A stretch of 36,986 nucleotides of DNA from an uncultured Archangium sp. (GTDB taxonomy: Bacteria > Myxococcota > Myxococcia > Myxococcales > Myxococcaceae), in the NCBI GenBank assembly GCA_903905455.1, contig CAIVGN010000102.1, positions 1 through 36,986 on the forward strand. The letters run 5' to 3'. A program made the translations under genes and the position numbers. The stretch's first letter is position 1. The number at the start of each line of letters is the position of its first letter. Of this stretch, positions 5,732 to 29,449 are shown one piece after another. Below the pieces are notes generated by a model. The model saw only the letters and a list, made by a program, of their open reading frames with translations, made no database searches and was not told the DNA's origin.

Positions 5732-6592
5732 CTACTGCTTGGTGAGGGTGGTGCTGCCCTTCTCGGTGCCGGTGAGGCTGCTGGTGGTCTCGCGCAGGAC
5801 CAGCGAGGCGCCGGTGACGCAGGTGTTGAAGGTGCGCGTCTTGTTCGGGGCGACCACGGTCACCACGCCGCCCGCGGAAGTCCACGTGCCGGTCTCGTCG
5901 AAGGTGCTCGCGCCGCTCACGGTGCAGTCGCAGCCGGTGCGCGGCGACGCGGCGGTGACGCAGGCCGCGGTGGGCACCGACTGGCGCAGCAGGGTCTGAA
6001 TGGTGCTGCACCCGAGGCTCGCGCACGAGGTCGGGAGGTTGATGGTGGTGAGGAAGTTCGTGGTGACGTGGCGCACCACCGCCGTGCCGAGGAAGTCGAC
6101 GCGGCCCGCGAGGCTCGAGGTCGAGCTCACCGTGGACACCGAGCTGCACAACGAGCGGAAGTCCGCGAGCGGGTCGTCGGCGCAGGCGGCCGTGTAGAAC
6201 CAGGTTCCCGCGAGCGCACCCGCGCACGGGGTCACCGTCGCGCACGAGCCGGTGGTGACGCTCACCATGCCCGGCGTTCCCGCATCGGGGAGCATCAGCG
6301 CACCGCCTCCGCCACCGGTCGCAGCACCACCACCACCACCTCCTCCTCCTCCGGTCGCGCTGCCGCCGCCACCACCACCCACCGCGGAACCTCCACCGCC
6401 GCCCATCGACGAGCCCCCGCCGCCGCCAACCGAGGTGCCGCCACCACCGCCCGTGGTCGAGCCTCCGCCGGTGGCCGCGCCGCCACCGCTGCCGGCGTCG
6501 CCGTCACAGGTCGCCCCGCTGCACGGTGCGCTGCCACACGAAAGGAAAGCCAGGGACGCGCCCACGAGGGCAGGGAAGAGAAGTTCTCGCAT
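5732..6592 (-). CDS. Lipoprotein with long Gly-rich spacer
   Basis: A 286-residue predicted lipoprotein. MRELLFPALVGASLAFLSCG has a lipobox with Cys19. Residues about 35-97 are a low-complexity spacer of GGG/GGGGG runs broken by Ala, Thr or Ser. The folded C-terminal part (about 105-286) has paired cysteines (CATVTPCAG, CASLGCS, GCDCTV) and beta-strand-like Thr/Val-rich sequence ending in TEKGSTTLTKQ. This architecture (lipid anchor, flexible Gly linker, small beta domain) is common among myxobacterial surface proteins. The ATG at 6592 was chosen because it places the signal peptide at the N-terminus; upstream in-frame codons would add an unrelated polar leader. Ligand or function is not deducible. 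Confidence 0.75.
   Translation of the reverse strand: MRELLFPALVGASLAFLSCGSAPCSGATCDGDAGSGGGAATGGGSTTGGGGGTSVGGGGGSSMGGGGGSAVGGGGGGSATGGGGGGGGGAATGGGGGALMLPDAGTPGMVSVTTGSCATVTPCAGALAGTWFYTAACADDPLADFRSLCSSVSTVSSTSSLAGRVDFLGTAVVRHVTTNFLTTINLPTSCASLGCSTIQTLLRQSVPTAACVTAASPRTGCDCTVSGASTFDETGTWTSAGGVVTVVAPNKTRTFNTCVTGASLVLRETTSSLTGTEKGSTTLTKQ
6302..6490 (-). repeat. Gly-rich low-complexity tandem repeat inside lipoprotein gene
   Basis: Imperfect tandem repeats of short units encoding GGG(G)(A/T/S)-type segments, about 190 bases. The opposite strand reads as poly-Pro/Ala, which creates false open frames. Likely prone to length variation by slippage. Confidence 0.7.
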
Positions 6593-6634
6593 TGCGCGCA
6601 GAGTTGGCAGCTTCGGCGGCGAGGTCAACCGGCT

Positions 6635-8867: not shown

Positions 8868-9749
8868 GTGAACGCACGGTGGCTGGTCCCGGTGGTGCTG
8901 TGGGTGTCTGCCTGCGTGAAGGCCCCGGGGTCTTCGGCGGCGGCGCGCCCCGGCGTGGTGATCATCGCGGCCGGCGACGTCTCGGCCCCGGAACTCACCG
9001 GCCAGGTGCTCACCGCGGCGCTGGTCGAGTCGCAGCACCCGGAAGCCGTGCTGGTGCTCGGCGACGCGCAGTACGGCGAAGGCACGCCCGAGCAGTTCGC
9101 GCAGGCCTACGCGCCGACCTGGGGCCGCTTCAAGGACCTCACGCGGCCGGTGCCGGGCAACCACGAGTACAAGAGCGGCGCGGTCGGTTACTTCGGCTAC
9201 TTCGGCGCGCGCGCGGGGGAGCCGGGCAAGGGCTACTACTCCTTTGACCTCGGCGCCTGGCACCTCGTGGCCCTCAACACCTCCGACGGGTGTCGTACCG
9301 TGCGCTGCGACGCCGACTCGGAGCAGCTCGCGTGGCTCGAGGCCGACCTCGCTTCGACCGTGAAGAAGTGCGTGCTCGCGTACTGGCACCACCCGCGCTT
9401 CAGCTCGGGCCGGCACGGGTCGTTCGCCGGCGCGGCCCCCCTCTGGAAGGTGCTCACCCGGCACCACGTGGAGCTCGCGCTCAACGGCCACGAGCACCTC
9501 TACGAGCGCCTCGGGCCCGTGGACGAGAGCGGCGCGTTGGCCGACGGGGGCCTCGTGCAGCTCACCATCGGCACCGGGGGCATCGGCTTCACCGAATTCG
9601 GCGCCACGCCCGTGGCCGCGAGCCTGGTGCGCCAGAACGACACCCTGGGGGTGATGCGCCTCAAGCTGGGCGACGACGGCTGGGAAGCCGACTTCCTCGG
9701 CGTGCCCGGCTCGACCTTCACCGACCACGCCTCGGGGGCCTGCCGGTGA
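8868..9749 (+). CDS. Calcineurin-like metallophosphoesterase lipoprotein
   Basis: A 293-residue protein starting at GTG. VNARWLVPVVLWVSAC is a lipoprotein signal peptide with Cys16. Metallophosphoesterase motifs appear in order: AAGDVSA (36-37), LVLGDAQYGEG (65-66), PVPGNHEY (97-100), YWHHPRFS (174-175) and LALNGHEHLYER (207-214). Together they form the two-metal centre of the purple acid phosphatase/calcineurin group, and the GHEHLYER ending is typical of the PAP-like branch. It is predicted to be exported and to hydrolyse phosphate esters in the envelope; the substrate is unknown. An ATG at 8857 opens a four-codon frame ending just inside this start and is not the start. The stop overlaps the GTG of the next gene (GTGA at 9746-9749), implying translational coupling. 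Confidence 0.85.
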   Translation: MNARWLVPVVLWVSACVKAPGSSAAARPGVVIIAAGDVSAPELTGQVLTAALVESQHPEAVLVLGDAQYGEGTPEQFAQAYAPTWGRFKDLTRPVPGNHEYKSGAVGYFGYFGARAGEPGKGYYSFDLGAWHLVALNTSDGCRTVRCDADSEQLAWLEADLASTVKKCVLAYWHHPRFSSGRHGSFAGAAPLWKVLTRHHVELALNGHEHLYERLGPVDESGALADGGLVQLTIGTGGIGFTEFGATPVAASLVRQNDTLGVMRLKLGDDGWEADFLGVPGSTFTDHASGACR

Positions 9750-11842
9750 CGCGGCGCGGGTTCGCGTGCCTGCTGCTGGCGCTCGCGGCGTGCGGGCCCG
9801 AGGTGAGCGCGCCTGGCACCGTGACCATCGCCCAGTACCGCTCGGGCCTGACGATGGCGGCGGCCGGAGGCTGCGACACGTCCATCGCGTCGGGTCTCTC
9901 GGCGCAGCTCGTCGAGGAGCTCAACTGCGTCACCCCGAACCTGATGGTCGACTTCTCGGGGCCGCACGTGACGTTGTACTCGGCGGTGCTCCCGTACCTC
10001 GCGCCCGACGCCGCGCAGGACCTCGAGGCGGCCACCCTCGCCCAGAACGACACGATGACCATCAGCTCGGCCTACCGCACGCTGGGCCAGCAGTACCTGC
10101 TCTACAAGTGGTGGCAGGCGGGGCAGTGCGGCATCCAGGTCGCGGCGGTACCCGGCTCGTCCAACCACCAGAGCGGCCGGGCCATCGACACCCCGTACTA
10201 CTCGACGTGGAAGCCGGCGCTGACCGCCCGCGGGTGGACGTGGCTCGGCAGCGCCGACCTCGTGCACTTCGATCACCTCGCGTCGCCCAACATCGCGTCG
10301 ACGTCGATCCTCGCGTTCCAGAAGTTGTGGAACAAGAACCACGCCACCGGCCAGCTCTCGGAAGACGGCTCGTGGGGGCCGAACACCGAGAGCGCCATGT
10401 CGCAGGCGCCCACCTCGGGCTTCGCGGTGCACGGCTGCGTCACCACCGGCAAGCTCGCCGGCACCATCACCCAGCAGGGCACCACCACGCCGCTGTCCGG
10501 GGTCTCCGTCTCGGTGGGGGCCTCGAGCGTCACCACCACCGCGACCGGCGCCTTCGAGTTCACCCTCGGCGCCGGCCCGGTCACGGTCACCGCCGCGAAG
10601 GCGGGCTTCACCCCCACCTCCGTCACCCGCACCGTGCAGGTCGGCAACACCGTCTCGGCGTCCATGGCGCTCTCTCCCCTGGGCGCCAACGCCACGCTCG
10701 CCGGCACGGTGGTCGAGGCCGCGAGCCCCGGCACGCCCGTGGCCAGCGCCTCGGTGACCGTCGCGGGCCGCGCGCTCACCACCGACGCCAGCGGCGCCTT
10801 CCAGGCCGTGCTGCCGGCGGGCACGGTGACGGTCACGGTGTCCAAGGCGGGCTACGTGGTGAACACCAGCGCGGTGCCGTTGATCGCCGGGCAGACGAAG
10901 ACGGTGCAGATCTCCCTGGCGACCTCGACGGGAGATCAACCCCCGGTGCTCGAGCTCTCCTCTCCGGCCCCCTTCACCAGCTTCGACCTGTCGCGCATCG
11001 TGGTCGCGGGCGTGGCCGCCGACGACAGCGGGCCGTTGACCTCGCTGCAGTTGGTGCAGAACGGCGCGGCCGCGGTGACGTGGCCCCTCGTGGGCGGCGC
11101 CTTCGAGGTGCCGGTGCTGCTCGCGCCGGGCCTCAACGCGCTGGAGTTCTCCGTCAGCGACCCGGCCGGCCACACCACCCGGGTGACGTGGACGGGCGCC
11201 TTCCGCGCCGGCTTCTCGGGCCTGGTGCACCGCTTCGACGACGCCGCCGCGGTCATCGTCGACGCCGACCTGACGCTCTTCGATCCCGACACCCAGGTCG
11301 CGCTGGGCACCGCGCGCAGCGGCCCCGACGGGCGCTTCGAGCTCGAGGCGAGTGCCGCGAGGCTCGCGCGGTTGCACGTCGAGAAGGCCGGCTTCACCCC
11401 GCGAGACCTGCTGGTGGACGTCTCGGCCGAGCAGCGCACCGCGCTGGACGTGGGCCTCACGCCCGGCGACGTCGCGGAGCTGCGCTTCCTCGAGCCCTCG
11501 ACGGAGGGACCCTTCGAGGCCGAGGAGATCACCGTGTCAGGCGTGGTGACCGGCTTCGAGGTGGCCCAGGTGACGGTGAACGGCCAGCCGGCGACCTTGC
11601 TGGGCAGCGGCTTCGTGGCCCATCTCCCGTTGCCCGAGGGGCGCACGGTCTTCGAGGCCATCGCCGAGGGCGCGGGCGGGCAGTCGGTGCGGGGCCAGGT
11701 GGTGGCGCGCCGGCCCATGCGAGACGTCGTCGGGGGCTGTGGCGCGGCGCCGGGTGGGTCGCTCGCCGCGCTGGGGCTCTTGCTGCTTCTGCGTCAGCGG
11801 TTGCGCAGGTGCGCCAGCGCCTCGCCGATGCGCTTCTCGTAG
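9746..11842 (+). CDS. M15 (VanY-type) peptidase-like lipoprotein with carboxypeptidase-regulatory-like repeats and MYXO-CTERM tail
   Basis: A 698-residue protein from a GTG that overlaps the previous stop. Order: lipobox LALAAC (Cys16); D-Ala-D-Ala carboxypeptidase-like M15 domain at about 75-180 with SAYRTLGQQ, the zinc motif SSNHQSGRAID (His141, Asp148) and DLVHFDH (Asp171, His174); a peptidoglycan-binding-like segment at 187-218 (FQKLWN...DGSWGPNTESAM); two carboxypeptidase-regulatory-like beta domains at about 236-310 and 315-395 (GKLAGTI...GAFEF; ATLAGTV...GAFQA); and further Ig/beta domains. The end has GGCGAAPGG (Cys665), a Leu-rich helix and RQRLRR, matching the MYXO-CTERM pattern recognised by myxosortases. 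It probably trims peptidoglycan peptides at the surface. The last 49 bases overlap the convergent gene. Confidence 0.85.
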   Translation: MTRRGFACLLLALAACGPEVSAPGTVTIAQYRSGLTMAAAGGCDTSIASGLSAQLVEELNCVTPNLMVDFSGPHVTLYSAVLPYLAPDAAQDLEAATLAQNDTMTISSAYRTLGQQYLLYKWWQAGQCGIQVAAVPGSSNHQSGRAIDTPYYSTWKPALTARGWTWLGSADLVHFDHLASPNIASTSILAFQKLWNKNHATGQLSEDGSWGPNTESAMSQAPTSGFAVHGCVTTGKLAGTITQQGTTTPLSGVSVSVGASSVTTTATGAFEFTLGAGPVTVTAAKAGFTPTSVTRTVQVGNTVSASMALSPLGANATLAGTVVEAASPGTPVASASVTVAGRALTTDASGAFQAVLPAGTVTVTVSKAGYVVNTSAVPLIAGQTKTVQISLATSTGDQPPVLELSSPAPFTSFDLSRIVVAGVAADDSGPLTSLQLVQNGAAAVTWPLVGGAFEVPVLLAPGLNALEFSVSDPAGHTTRVTWTGAFRAGFSGLVHRFDDAAAVIVDADLTLFDPDTQVALGTARSGPDGRFELEASAARLARLHVEKAGFTPRDLLVDVSAEQRTALDVGLTPGDVAELRFLEPSTEGPFEAEEITVSGVVTGFEVAQVTVNGQPATLLGSGFVAHLPLPEGRTVFEAIAEGAGGQSVRGQVVARRPMRDVVGGCGAAPGGSLAALGLLLLLRQRLRRCASASPMRFS

Positions 11843-12723
11843 CCGGGCGTCTTGAAGCGCGGGTTCTTCATCATCCACAGCAGGAAGTCGCGCAGCTGCG
11901 GGGCACGGCTCACCTCGGCGGCGCGCATCATCGCCCAGCACATGCCGTCCGAATCACGGGCGGCGACGCGGCGCTTCCACAGCGCGGCGAAGATGAGATC
12001 GTCGGTCGCCGACTCGGCCAGCACCGCGGCCGCCACGTCGCGCGAGCGCAGGTCGTCGTGGGAGAGCACCTTCGCCAGGCGCTGCGCGGTCTCGATGTCC
12101 GGCTTGCCCAGCGCCAGCAGGGCCTTGAGCGGCATGTGCGCGGGGCGGCCGCCGAGGCGCTCGTCCACGTCGGCGGTGGGGAACTCCACCACGCTCAACA
12201 AGGCCTCGATGATCTCCGGGTGGGCCGTCTCGCCGAGCAGCGCGTCGACGTGCATCAGCACCTGGGCGTCGGGGTAGCGCAGCGCGAGCAGCAACCCGGG
12301 CAGCGCGGTGTCCATGTTCTTGCGCAGCCAGTCGGCGGCGAGCGACGGCTCCCGGGGCTGACCCGTTTCCCACCAGGTGAGCTTCTCGATGGTCTCCCTG
12401 GCGAGCGCCTCGCCGCCGGCGAGGAACTGGCTGCGCAGCACGTCGGCGTCGAAGCCCTGGTCGTCGGCCTCCCACCAGGTCACCAGCTCGTCGAGGCGGC
12501 GGCGCCAGTCGGGCGGGGTGCGCTCGGTGAACCCCTCGGCGAGCTGCTCCTGCACCAGGCCGTCGAGGTCGCGGGCGCCGAGCACCGGGGCGTCGAAGGC
12601 CCGCTTGCGCTCGATGGTCTCGCCGTCGCTGGTGATGCGCAGCTCGACGACGTTGCCGCGGAGCCTGATTTCCCACTGGCGGCCGTCATCGTGGGTGAAC
12701 TGGCGGAAGGGAGGAGCGCGCAT
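11794..12723 (-). CDS. Unknown protein, WGR-like N-terminus plus helical repeats
   Basis: A 309-residue cytoplasmic protein. The first 60 residues (FRQFTHDDGRQWEIRLRGNVVELRITSDGETIERKRAF) resemble the small WGR/WGR-like beta domain of proteins such as MolR/ParpB relatives: an aromatic-Glu-Ile strand, then a Gly turn, then a basic strand. The remainder is mostly alpha-helical with Leu/Ala-rich segments (about 150-290: LPGLLLALRYPDAQVLMHVDAL, PLKALLALGKPDIETAQRLAKVL, RSRDVAAAVLAES) suggesting HEAT-like repeats. No catalytic motif is seen. The ATG at 12723 is the first in-frame start after a stop-rich gap and leaves 34 bases to the histidine kinase stop upstream on the same strand, so the two are probably co-transcribed. 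The 3' end overlaps the convergent M15 gene by 49 bases. Confidence 0.7.
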   Translation of the reverse strand: MRAPPFRQFTHDDGRQWEIRLRGNVVELRITSDGETIERKRAFDAPVLGARDLDGLVQEQLAEGFTERTPPDWRRRLDELVTWWEADDQGFDADVLRSQFLAGGEALARETIEKLTWWETGQPREPSLAADWLRKNMDTALPGLLLALRYPDAQVLMHVDALLGETAHPEIIEALLSVVEFPTADVDERLGGRPAHMPLKALLALGKPDIETAQRLAKVLSHDDLRSRDVAAAVLAESATDDLIFAALWKRRVAARDSDGMCWAMMRAAEVSRAPQLRDFLLWMMKNPRFKTPGYEKRIGEALAHLRNR

Positions 12724-14572: not shown

Positions 14573-14597
14573 CGTGGGGGGCGCTTGGTCTCGCCTT

Positions 14598-14604
14598 GGA
14601 AAGG
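14598..14604 (+). promoter_or_regulatory. Ribosome binding site deciding the lipoprotein start
   Basis: GGAAAGG ends 9 bases before the ATG at 14614. The in-frame TTG at 14596 precedes this site and would add six polar residues before the signal peptide, so the ATG is preferred. Confidence 0.5.
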
Positions 14605-14613
14605 CGCATCGAC

Positions 14614-15519
14614 ATGAAGACGAAGACGTGGCTGCTCGCGGGGGCCTTGTTGGGCCTGACCCTTTCGCTGGCACCGAGCTGTGGCAGCAGTGGTTCCGCG
14701 TGTACGTCCTGCAACGGGTGTTGTGACGCCTCGGGCATCTGCCAGGGAGGCATCCAGCCCAACGCCTGTGGCGCTGCCGGGAACGCCTGCATGGCGTGCT
14801 TCGCCGGCCAGGTCTGCAGCAGCATCGGCACGTGCGTGCCGAACACCGCGGGCACCGGGGGAAGCAACGCGACCGGGGGCGGCGCCGCGACGGGCGGCGG
14901 CACGGGCACCGGGGGCGGCGTCGCGACGGGTGGAGGCACTGGCACCGGGGGCGGCCTCGCGACCGGCGGCGGCACGGCCACGGGTGGCGGCACCGCGACG
15001 GGTGGCGGCACCGCGACGGGCGGTGGCACCGCGACGGGCGGCGGCACGGGCACCGGCGGCGGTTCCGCGTCGACCTGCAACCCGGCCGTGCCCCTCATCC
15101 CCTCCATCGACGGCTCGGGCGGCTGCGTGCTGCGCATGGTCTCGCCCACGGCCTGCGGCCAGGTGAACTTCGCCACCCTGGGCTACGTGGAGTTCGCCTG
15201 GCAGACGAGCGGCACCTTCTGCGAGGGCCCTCACCACTTCGCCATCGGCGGCAACCCGCCGAGCACCTGGGGGCCGCCGACGTACAACGGCATCAGCTAC
15301 TCGTTGACCTCGACCAACGGCAGCGGCGCCGCCTTCGGCACCAACGGCTCGGCCTACGCGATGACCCGGAACCTGGGCGGGCTGGTGCAACTCAAGCGCG
15401 CCGACCTCGCGGGCATCACCACCGACAACGGCCAGTACCACGTCGTCGTCACCGACTATTACGACGTGAACAACGGCGGCTCGCGGTCGAACTCCATCAC
15501 CTTCACCGTCGCGCCGTAG
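14614..15519 (+). CDS. Lipoprotein with Cys-rich module and Gly/Thr repeat spacer
   Basis: A 301-residue predicted lipoprotein: MKTKTWLLAGALLGLTLSLAPSC, lipidated Cys23. Residues about 30-77 form a compact Cys-rich module (CTSCNGCCDASGICQ, CGAAGNACMACFAGQVC, CVPN) that I recognise as recurring in myxobacterial surface lipoproteins. Residues about 85-150 are tandem GGGTAT/GGGTGT hexapeptide-like repeats. The C-terminal half is a globular beta-rich domain beginning CNPAVPLIPSIDGSGGCVLRM and ending NSITFTVAP, with aromatic-rich strands (YVEFAWQTSG, YHVVVTDYYDVNNGG) reminiscent of an Ig- or carbohydrate-binding-like fold. Exposure on the cell surface is likely; function is unknown. Confidence 0.8.
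   Translation: MKTKTWLLAGALLGLTLSLAPSCGSSGSACTSCNGCCDASGICQGGIQPNACGAAGNACMACFAGQVCSSIGTCVPNTAGTGGSNATGGGAATGGGTGTGGGVATGGGTGTGGGLATGGGTATGGGTATGGGTATGGGTATGGGTGTGGGSASTCNPAVPLIPSIDGSGGCVLRMVSPTACGQVNFATLGYVEFAWQTSGTFCEGPHHFAIGGNPPSTWGPPTYNGISYSLTSTNGSGAAFGTNGSAYAMTRNLGGLVQLKRADLAGITTDNGQYHVVVTDYYDVNNGGSRSNSITFTVAP
14871..15063 (+). repeat. 18-base tandem repeats encoding the GGGTAT-type spacer
   Basis: About ten imperfect tandem units, each roughly 18 bases and encoding Gly-Gly-Gly-Thr-(Ala/Gly)-Thr. The last four or five units are nearly identical (GGCGGCACCGCGACGGGT), suggesting recent expansion. The complementary strand reads as PPPVAV repeats, which creates a false long open frame. Confidence 0.75.
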
Positions 15520-28864: not shown

Positions 28865-29449
28865 TCAGCCGGCGAGGAGCTTCTTCACTTCGTTCGCGCA
28901 GGCCGCATGGGGAGGCTCGGCGCCCAGGCGCTGGCGCTGGCAGACGGCCTCGTAGCGGGCCCACTCGACCCTCGCGACGTCCTGGAGCGCAGCAAAGCGC
29001 TCGGCCGTCGCGAACGAGCTCTCTTGGCCCGGGGTCTCGAAGTACCGCCGCCCCAGGAGGTCGAGCGCCTGCACGTGCTGCTTCCGCTCTTCCAGCGCAT
29101 CCGCGCGCAGCCACGACGCGACCTCGCGCACCGCCAGCCACGAGTCCTGCACCAGCGAGCCGTGCGCGCGCCGCGAGAGCCAGGGAATGGAGCCGGAGTT
29201 GGCCCGCTTGATCAACGCGGCCTCGTCGAGCTTGAGCATGGCCCACTCGCCGGCCACCTGCGTCAGGTTGCCGATGGCCTCGGGGAACACCTCGGCCCAG
29301 AAGATGCGCTCCAGCGTCTCGTCGTCGAGGCCCGAGGCCACGCAGGCAAAGGCCACGTGGGGCACGCTCCAGCGCACCTCGGTGTCGAGGAAGAGGTCGC
29401 TCATGGCCTCCCACAGCGGCTGCCGGGTCGCGAGCTCGTCGTGGGTCAT
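28865..29449 (-). CDS. Small uncharacterised protein (DUF7079-like)
   Basis: A 194-residue cytoplasmic protein. Its beginning, RQPLWEAMSDLFLDTEVRWSVPHVAFACVASGLDDETLERIFWAEVFPEAIGNLTQVAGEWAML, resembles a small family of bacterial proteins with a 'LSDLFLDTE...EV.P....N...AGEW' pattern that I take to be DUF7079; the family number is from memory. The remainder is helical. There is no known function and no catalytic motif. The ATG overlaps the stop of the ROK kinase gene (ATGA), so the proteins are translationally coupled, and hflX follows 39 bases later. Confidence 0.7.
   Translation of the reverse strand: MTHDELATRQPLWEAMSDLFLDTEVRWSVPHVAFACVASGLDDETLERIFWAEVFPEAIGNLTQVAGEWAMLKLDEAALIKRANSGSIPWLSRRAHGSLVQDSWLAVREVASWLRADALEERKQHVQALDLLGRRYFETPGQESSFATAERFAALQDVARVEWARYEAVCQRQRLGAEPPHAACANEVKKLLAG

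Follow-up and report, generated by a model that had tools for sequence, protein, structure and literature searches.

A 36,986-nucleotide stretch from an uncultured Archangium sp. (contig CAIVGN010000102.1 of assembly GCA_903905455.1), hereafter called the window, encodes the M15/VanY-type protein P0001, which carries two export or anchoring signals: a lipobox at the N-terminus and a C-terminal tail that we assign to the MYXO-CTERM class. This pair had been proposed in an earlier prediction made from the sequence of the window alone (hereafter the original prediction); both signals were seen here and are conserved in relatives, and the interpretation offered with them was borne out in part. By our favoured reading, which we hold to be evenly balanced between right and wrong, P0001 is a peptidoglycan peptidase of the M15 type that is exported, uses two anchoring pathways, is tethered by both ends on the outer face of the cell and cuts foreign peptidoglycan.

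Sequence features of P0001

The coordinates and frame of the gene, as well as the positions of both motifs (the lipobox at Cys16 and Cys665 in GGCGAAPGGSLAALGLLLLLRQRLRR), were correct in the original prediction and are listed with the other features in Table 1. The N-terminus (MTRRGFACLLLALAAC) was identified as a signal peptide with a charged n-region, a hydrophobic core and the canonical lipobox ALAAC ending in Cys16, and GTG at 9746 is the sole start codon suitably placed before this residue. Signal classes were assigned throughout by our own pattern rules and not by SignalP; under these rules, and with the lipobox conserved in relatives, the N-terminus has the features of a bacterial lipoprotein signal, and P0001 is a putative lipoprotein by pattern.

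The Pfam gathering score placed P0001 within peptidase family M15 (VanY). The zinc site of M15 peptidases is defined by SxHxxGxAxD and a later (D/E)xxH, and the corresponding motifs SNHQSGRA[IL]D and D-x-VH[FY] were present in all five M15 proteins found (see below), P0001 included. By the zinc site known for the family, H141 and D148 of P0001 are predicted to be zinc ligands. The best match in a sequence search of the PDB with P0001 was VanXYg (PDB 4mur, E-value 0.22), and an AlphaFold2 model computed from a two-sequence alignment had a mean predicted local distance difference test (pLDDT) score of 44.9, with residues 1-234 below 50 and no usable M15 domain. The remainder of the protein includes beta-type repeats: the carboxypeptidase-regulatory-like repeats named by the original prediction were recovered in three stretches, and the peptidoglycan-binding repeats that it also named found no support, as no peptidoglycan-binding family (e.g., PG_binding_1) was listed for P0001 among the Pfam matches at E-values up to 1.

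P0001 falls short of membership in the curated MYXO-CTERM model TIGR03901 (cut-off 20 bits), which gave 49 matches in the same genome, 19 of them over the cut-off and none on the contig of P0001 (C102). Two further tail models were built for this study. The first was a profile of 93 terminal MYXO-CTERM tails from eight other genomes; it scored P0001 at 15.1 bits, a value reached by none of the 292 open reading frames (ORFs) without a census match (next 13.0 bits) and by none of 5000 shuffles, yet the best shuffle was close (15.0 bits). The second used 36 tails, all of them from related cell-wall enzymes, with P0001 excluded and two of 14 GH25 tails omitted. Here P0001 scored 21.8 bits. None of 10000 shuffles came up to this value (best 13.9 bits), and the two of 302 background ORFs that did so both carry tails.

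P0001 also has the characters of the wider class, namely a Cys, a hydrophobic helix, an Arg-rich C-terminus and a score above shuffles, and both Cys16 and Cys665 are invariant between P0001 and its ortholog with 57% identity. The tail was therefore assigned, on the strength of the purpose-built tail models and of conservation and despite the TIGR03901 result, to the MYXO-CTERM class, and it is considered to lie beneath the reach of the curated model. The original prediction had named the lack of a match to a MYXO-CTERM model as evidence that would speak against it; taken to the letter this is what TIGR03901 returned, while the claim of class membership itself stood by the tail models and conservation.

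Occurrence of the paired signals

The M15 part of P0001 (209 aa) gave matches at E-values up to 1e-12 in three of 195 genomes of the phylum, amounting to five proteins in total, and all five, P0001 included, have both the lipobox and a Cys-hydrophobic-Arg tail. A scan of named genomes with P0001 gave one relative, an ortholog in the metagenome-assembled genome Myxococcaceae bacterium SSF41; this genome is labelled as belonging to the same family as that of P0001, which makes an origin of the window in Myxococcaceae most likely. The C-terminal half of P0001 also occurs in amidase-type proteins (Amidase_2, SLT), which were found in 26 of the 195 genomes at E-values up to 1e-60, and in a GH25 protein (L232 of genome G023). 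Twenty-eight further relatives with this C-terminal module were examined (27 amidase-type, one GH25-type). Of the 26 whose N-terminus was in view, 25 have the lipobox (24 assigned by script and L227 by eye; the exception, L217, has an atypical LLCC). The tail is present in all 24 that could be read to the C-terminus, and 21 of the 22 visible at both termini have both signals; these family tallies were read partly by eye and, since the sequences are related, do not count independent events. Within the family of P0001 the lipobox-tail pair is, as far as sequences can tell, a fixed feature that is kept throughout.

The tail of one amidase-type relative (L100) scored 21.5 bits with TIGR04564 (Synerg-CTERM; cut-off 22.5) and was absent from the TIGR03901 matches listed, and by this tail the Synerg-CTERM and MYXO-CTERM tag classes overlap.

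In the genome of P0001 the lipobox and the tail occur together on all five wall enzymes of three families (GH25 2/2, Amidase_2 1/1, VanY 2/2). Among its ten M23 peptidases the tail was found in none and the lipobox in two, both by eye. A 5/5 versus 0/10 split of the tail would be expected once in 3003 random assignments (hand calculation), a figure that is only descriptive because the families were chosen after the first cases had been seen. For GH25 a survey across 60 relatives gave 63 listed matches, of which 30 loci were read; the tail was present in half of the 28 with the C-terminus in view (14/28).

For comparison with MYXO-CTERM proteins at large a census was made of 135 proteins matching TIGR03901, consisting of 35 of the 49 from the same genome and 100 from eight relatives, the latter being the best 100 by E-value of more than 140 matches listed. 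Their N-termini comprised 17 with a lipobox (among them L119, probably type I), 65 with a type I signal peptide, 43 unclassified and 10 cut by a contig end; by eye, L145, L156, L157, L193 and L202 have lipoboxes missed by the stricter rules. A lipobox was thus assigned to 17 of 82 classifiable MYXO-CTERM proteins as compared to 32 of 69 other exported ORFs (37 type I; Fisher p 0.0009), the background set holding, in both its lipobox and type I classes, a few sequences that are probably not signal peptides. By these pattern assignments MYXO-CTERM proteins have a lipobox less often than other exported proteins do, yet its presence is far from excluded. The view that the two signals are unique to P0001 was dropped: about one-fifth of the classifiable MYXO-CTERM proteins have a lipobox and the pair is conserved across the family of the enzyme, so P0001 is not a lone oddity. 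The unusual surface handling suggested in the original prediction may apply to it; two known pathways suffice, with no need for special processing.

Fourteen proteins of other genomes were listed with both a lipobox and a terminal tail. Ten doubly tagged proteins of other genomes (L193 and L156 among them) were scanned for domains and comprised trypsin-like (2), subtilase (1), HYR (2) and Ig-like (2) proteins and three without a family; the idea that dual tagging marks a wall enzyme everywhere was therefore dropped.

Some MYXO-CTERM tails were situated inside long reading frames. In nine of the 35 TIGR03901 matches examined from the genome of P0001 (L061, L062, L065, L069, L070, L074, L075, L077 and L087) the tail is followed, with no intervening stop, by a second signal peptide that leads into a further exported domain; OmpA was found in three of the eight downstream parts scanned. 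Internal tails also occur in L139, L141, L143, L187 and L199 of the relatives, and the second signal peptide is of the lipobox type in L074 and L199. Judged by sequence, these frames resemble precursors of two proteins, with the Arg cluster serving at the same time as the beginning of the following signal peptide. Excerpts of PMC11980579 describe MXAN_5598 as an instance of this kind, and the cases found here are more numerous than this single one.

Export machinery, proposed working and alternatives

The genome search for a myxosortase suggested with the original prediction was successful: MrtX is encoded on contig C130 of the genome (G000) and scored 330.1 bits with NF040593 (cut-off 180). 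There are four CPBP protease matches in the genome, two of which were tested by model, one being MrtX. Three matches to Lgt and two to GspD over the cut-off were also found, and GspN (Table 1) lies near the stronger GspD, at the far end of a gsp operon as read by eye, GspD and GspN alone having been tested by model. According to excerpts of PMC11980579, MYXO-CTERM tails are cleaved by myxosortase and the type II system takes the proteins to the surface; in Escherichia coli, MrtX was reported to be both necessary and sufficient for such a tail to be cleaved. Excerpts of PMC12802150 state that lipobox proteins of Acinetobacter, unlike soluble ones, need GspN to get to the surface via the type II system, and that the pullulanase of Klebsiella requires PulN, a GspN homolog.

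In the working proposed for P0001, Sec would export the protein, whose two termini would at first remain in the inner membrane. Lgt and LspA would lipidate and cleave the N-terminus at Cys16, and the C-terminus would stay anchored by its helix until lipidation of Cys665 and removal of the tail by MrtX. With the help of GspN, the folded protein would cross the outer membrane through the type II system, and P0001 would be displayed on the surface as an arch with both ends fixed. An enzyme held in this way could neither diffuse off nor reach the cell's own wall, and it would attack foreign peptidoglycan at contact. P0001 would be one of a set that includes the GH25, Amidase_2 and VanY enzymes of the genome with the same two tags.

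The doubly tagged wall-cutting enzymes are considered as candidates for surface-tethered prey-breaking tools, given the enzyme classes, the predation known in the group and the proposal, in excerpts of PMC8460266, of a cell-wall hydrolase at work where Myxococcus touches its prey. A broader version is possible, although we lean towards doubting it: a myxobacterial set of a muramidase, an amidase and a D,D- or L,D-peptidase, bound to the outer surface by a lipid on either terminus through the combined action of the lipoprotein pathway, the myxosortase and the GspN-equipped type II system, would open prey peptidoglycan locally at contact.

Several observations weigh against a surface enzyme anchored at both ends. 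TIGR03901 did not match P0001 at E-values up to 10, either by hmmscan of the protein or in the genome search. The tail has a short hydrophobic core of about 10-13 residues, and its Arg cluster is followed by ten more. The gene neighbourhood of P0001 is not kept in the single ortholog compared (L105). The residues after Cys16 (GPEVSAP) do not fit the surface motif of Acinetobacter, which is rich in Gly/Ser or Asn/Asp and was dropped as a feature of P0001. In GH25, furthermore, a lipobox was found by script in 11 of 14 proteins with the tail and in 10 of 14 without it, and a lipobox-tail coupling within this family was dropped as well; by these similar frequencies the lipobox goes with the enzyme class and some of its members have the tail in addition, so that a functional unit of the two tags is not required.

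The failure of TIGR03901, the short tail with its extension and the tail-less GH25 relatives, which are usually lipoproteins too, would also be expected if the N-terminal lipid alone matters and P0001 is a periplasm-facing outer-membrane lipoprotein that remodels the cell's own wall, its tail being a decayed or weakly used MYXO-CTERM. We consider this unlikely, since Cys-hydrophobic-Arg is kept in all five M15 proteins and in every other relative with the C-terminus seen, and since the 36-tail model separated the tail of P0001 from all of its shuffles. The converse, that P0001 is an ordinary MYXO-CTERM surface protein with a single C-terminal anchor, its signal peptide being cut by signal peptidase I or its lipobox unused, would agree with the type I signal peptide on 65 of the 82 classifiable census proteins; it appears improbable in view of the canonical lipobox in 5/5 M15 proteins and 25/26 other relatives as against 17/82 MYXO-CTERM proteins at large. 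Very improbable is a periplasm-spanning tether, with the N-terminal lipid in the outer membrane, the tail uncut in the inner membrane and the enzyme at the cell's own wall: the topology would permit it, given a lipid on one terminus and a Cys- and Arg-bearing membrane helix on the opposite one, but the genome has MrtX, with the reported activity in E. coli given above (PMC11980579, in excerpts), and no sequence feature favours retention.

Genomic context and comparison with known systems

The gene upstream of P0001 encodes a metallophosphoesterase, the end of which overlaps the start of P0001 by four bases (GTGA). It was rejected as a conserved partner, since it does not adjoin the ortholog in L105. 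Elsewhere in the window, 5732-6628 (-) and 14596-15519 (+) encode two small exported proteins in which a lipobox-like start is followed by long Gly-rich linkers.

Table 1. Position and supporting evidence of P0001, its sequence features and other genes discussed in the text. Coordinates refer to the window unless a contig is given.
Feature	Position	Strand	Evidence or remark
Coding sequence of the M15/VanY-type protein P0001	9746..11842	+	698 aa; GTG start; TAG stop at 11840-11842
Predicted lipoprotein signal peptide MTRRGFACLLLALAA-C16 (lipobox LAAC, Gly at +2)	9746..9793	+	Sequence; lipobox in 5/5 M15 relatives
VanY/M15 peptidase domain match, residues 88-149	10007..10192	+	PF02557, 30.7 bits (cut-off 25); same place in genome search
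Predicted zinc ligands H141 and D148 in SNHQSGRAID	within 10007..10192	+	Motif conserved in 5/5
Second M15 motif D171-x-V-H174, predicted catalytic Asp and third zinc ligand	10256..10267	+	D-x-VH[FY] in 5/5 M15 relatives; putative role
Best of three carboxypeptidase-regulatory-like repeats, residues 317-391	10694..10918	+	PF13620 (CarboxypepD_reg), 97.3 bits, 3 stretches
Glucodextranase-B-like domain, residues 579-648	11480..11689	+	PF09136 (Glucodextran_B), 35.1 bits (cut-off 27)
Putative MYXO-CTERM-class tail, GGC665GAAPGGSLAALGLLLLLRQRLRR	11732..11809	+	Two purpose-built tail models; TIGR03901 blind to tail
Ten-residue extension CASASPMRFS beyond the Arg cluster	11810..11839	+	Overlaps end of convergent downstream ORF (11794-12723, -)
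Metallophosphoesterase upstream of P0001, lipobox-like N-terminus VSAC	8868..9749	+	PF00149, 40.7 bits
Second VanY protein L274 with lipobox, Cys-rich repeats and putative MYXO-CTERM-class tail	G000:C197 about 29041-29346	-	VanY match; 511 aa
GspN in type II secretion locus	G000:C98:46427-47395	-	TIGR04411 (GspN, Leptospira type), 224.2 bits (cut-off 50)

No description of double tagging with a lipobox and a MYXO-CTERM tail was found in the literature searched, although an earlier mention in key papers is possible. On a natural substrate that has both a classical lipobox and, at its opposite end, the MYXO-CTERM Cys, the two lipidations could be compared within one molecule. As the doubly tagged GH25, Amidase_2 and VanY enzymes form a short list, the identity of a prey-wall-opening hydrolase becomes directly testable.

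Among known systems, GlyGly-CTERM/rhombosortase, with VesB of Vibrio cholerae as a substrate, is alike in the tripartite C-terminal tag, the intramembrane cleavage and the type II export (excerpts of PMC11980579). Rhombosortase differs from myxosortase in protease class. The GlyGly-CTERM tag has, to our knowledge, no invariant Cys, and we know of no lipobox on its substrates. With the VanY/VanXY D,D-peptidases (PF02557; PDB 4mur) P0001 shares the SxHxxGxAxD and later His motif of M15, and it differs from them by a long beta-repeat stalk and two anchoring signals and is distant in sequence. VanX and VanY have a Glu before the last His, where P0001 has an Asp.

Surface lipoproteins secreted by the type II system, such as the pullulanase PulA and InvL, resemble P0001 in the lipobox, and the genome of P0001 has GspN, homologs of which they require for surfacing; in excerpts of PMC12802150 these proteins are described with one N-terminal anchor, whereas P0001 lacks the Acinetobacter motif after the Cys and has a C-terminal tail in addition. 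The MYXO-CTERM/MrtX system (TraA, MXAN_4924) is alike in the Cys, the hydrophobic helix and the Arg cluster, and MrtX and a type II locus are present in the genome; its published model (excerpts of PMC11980579) begins with an ordinary signal peptide, whereas P0001 has a lipobox, an M15 peptidase domain and a tail invisible to TIGR03901. By analogy, P0001 would work like two known systems combined, MYXO-CTERM/myxosortase and the type II-secreted surface lipoproteins: the machinery is known, and it is used in combination on a set of wall enzymes.

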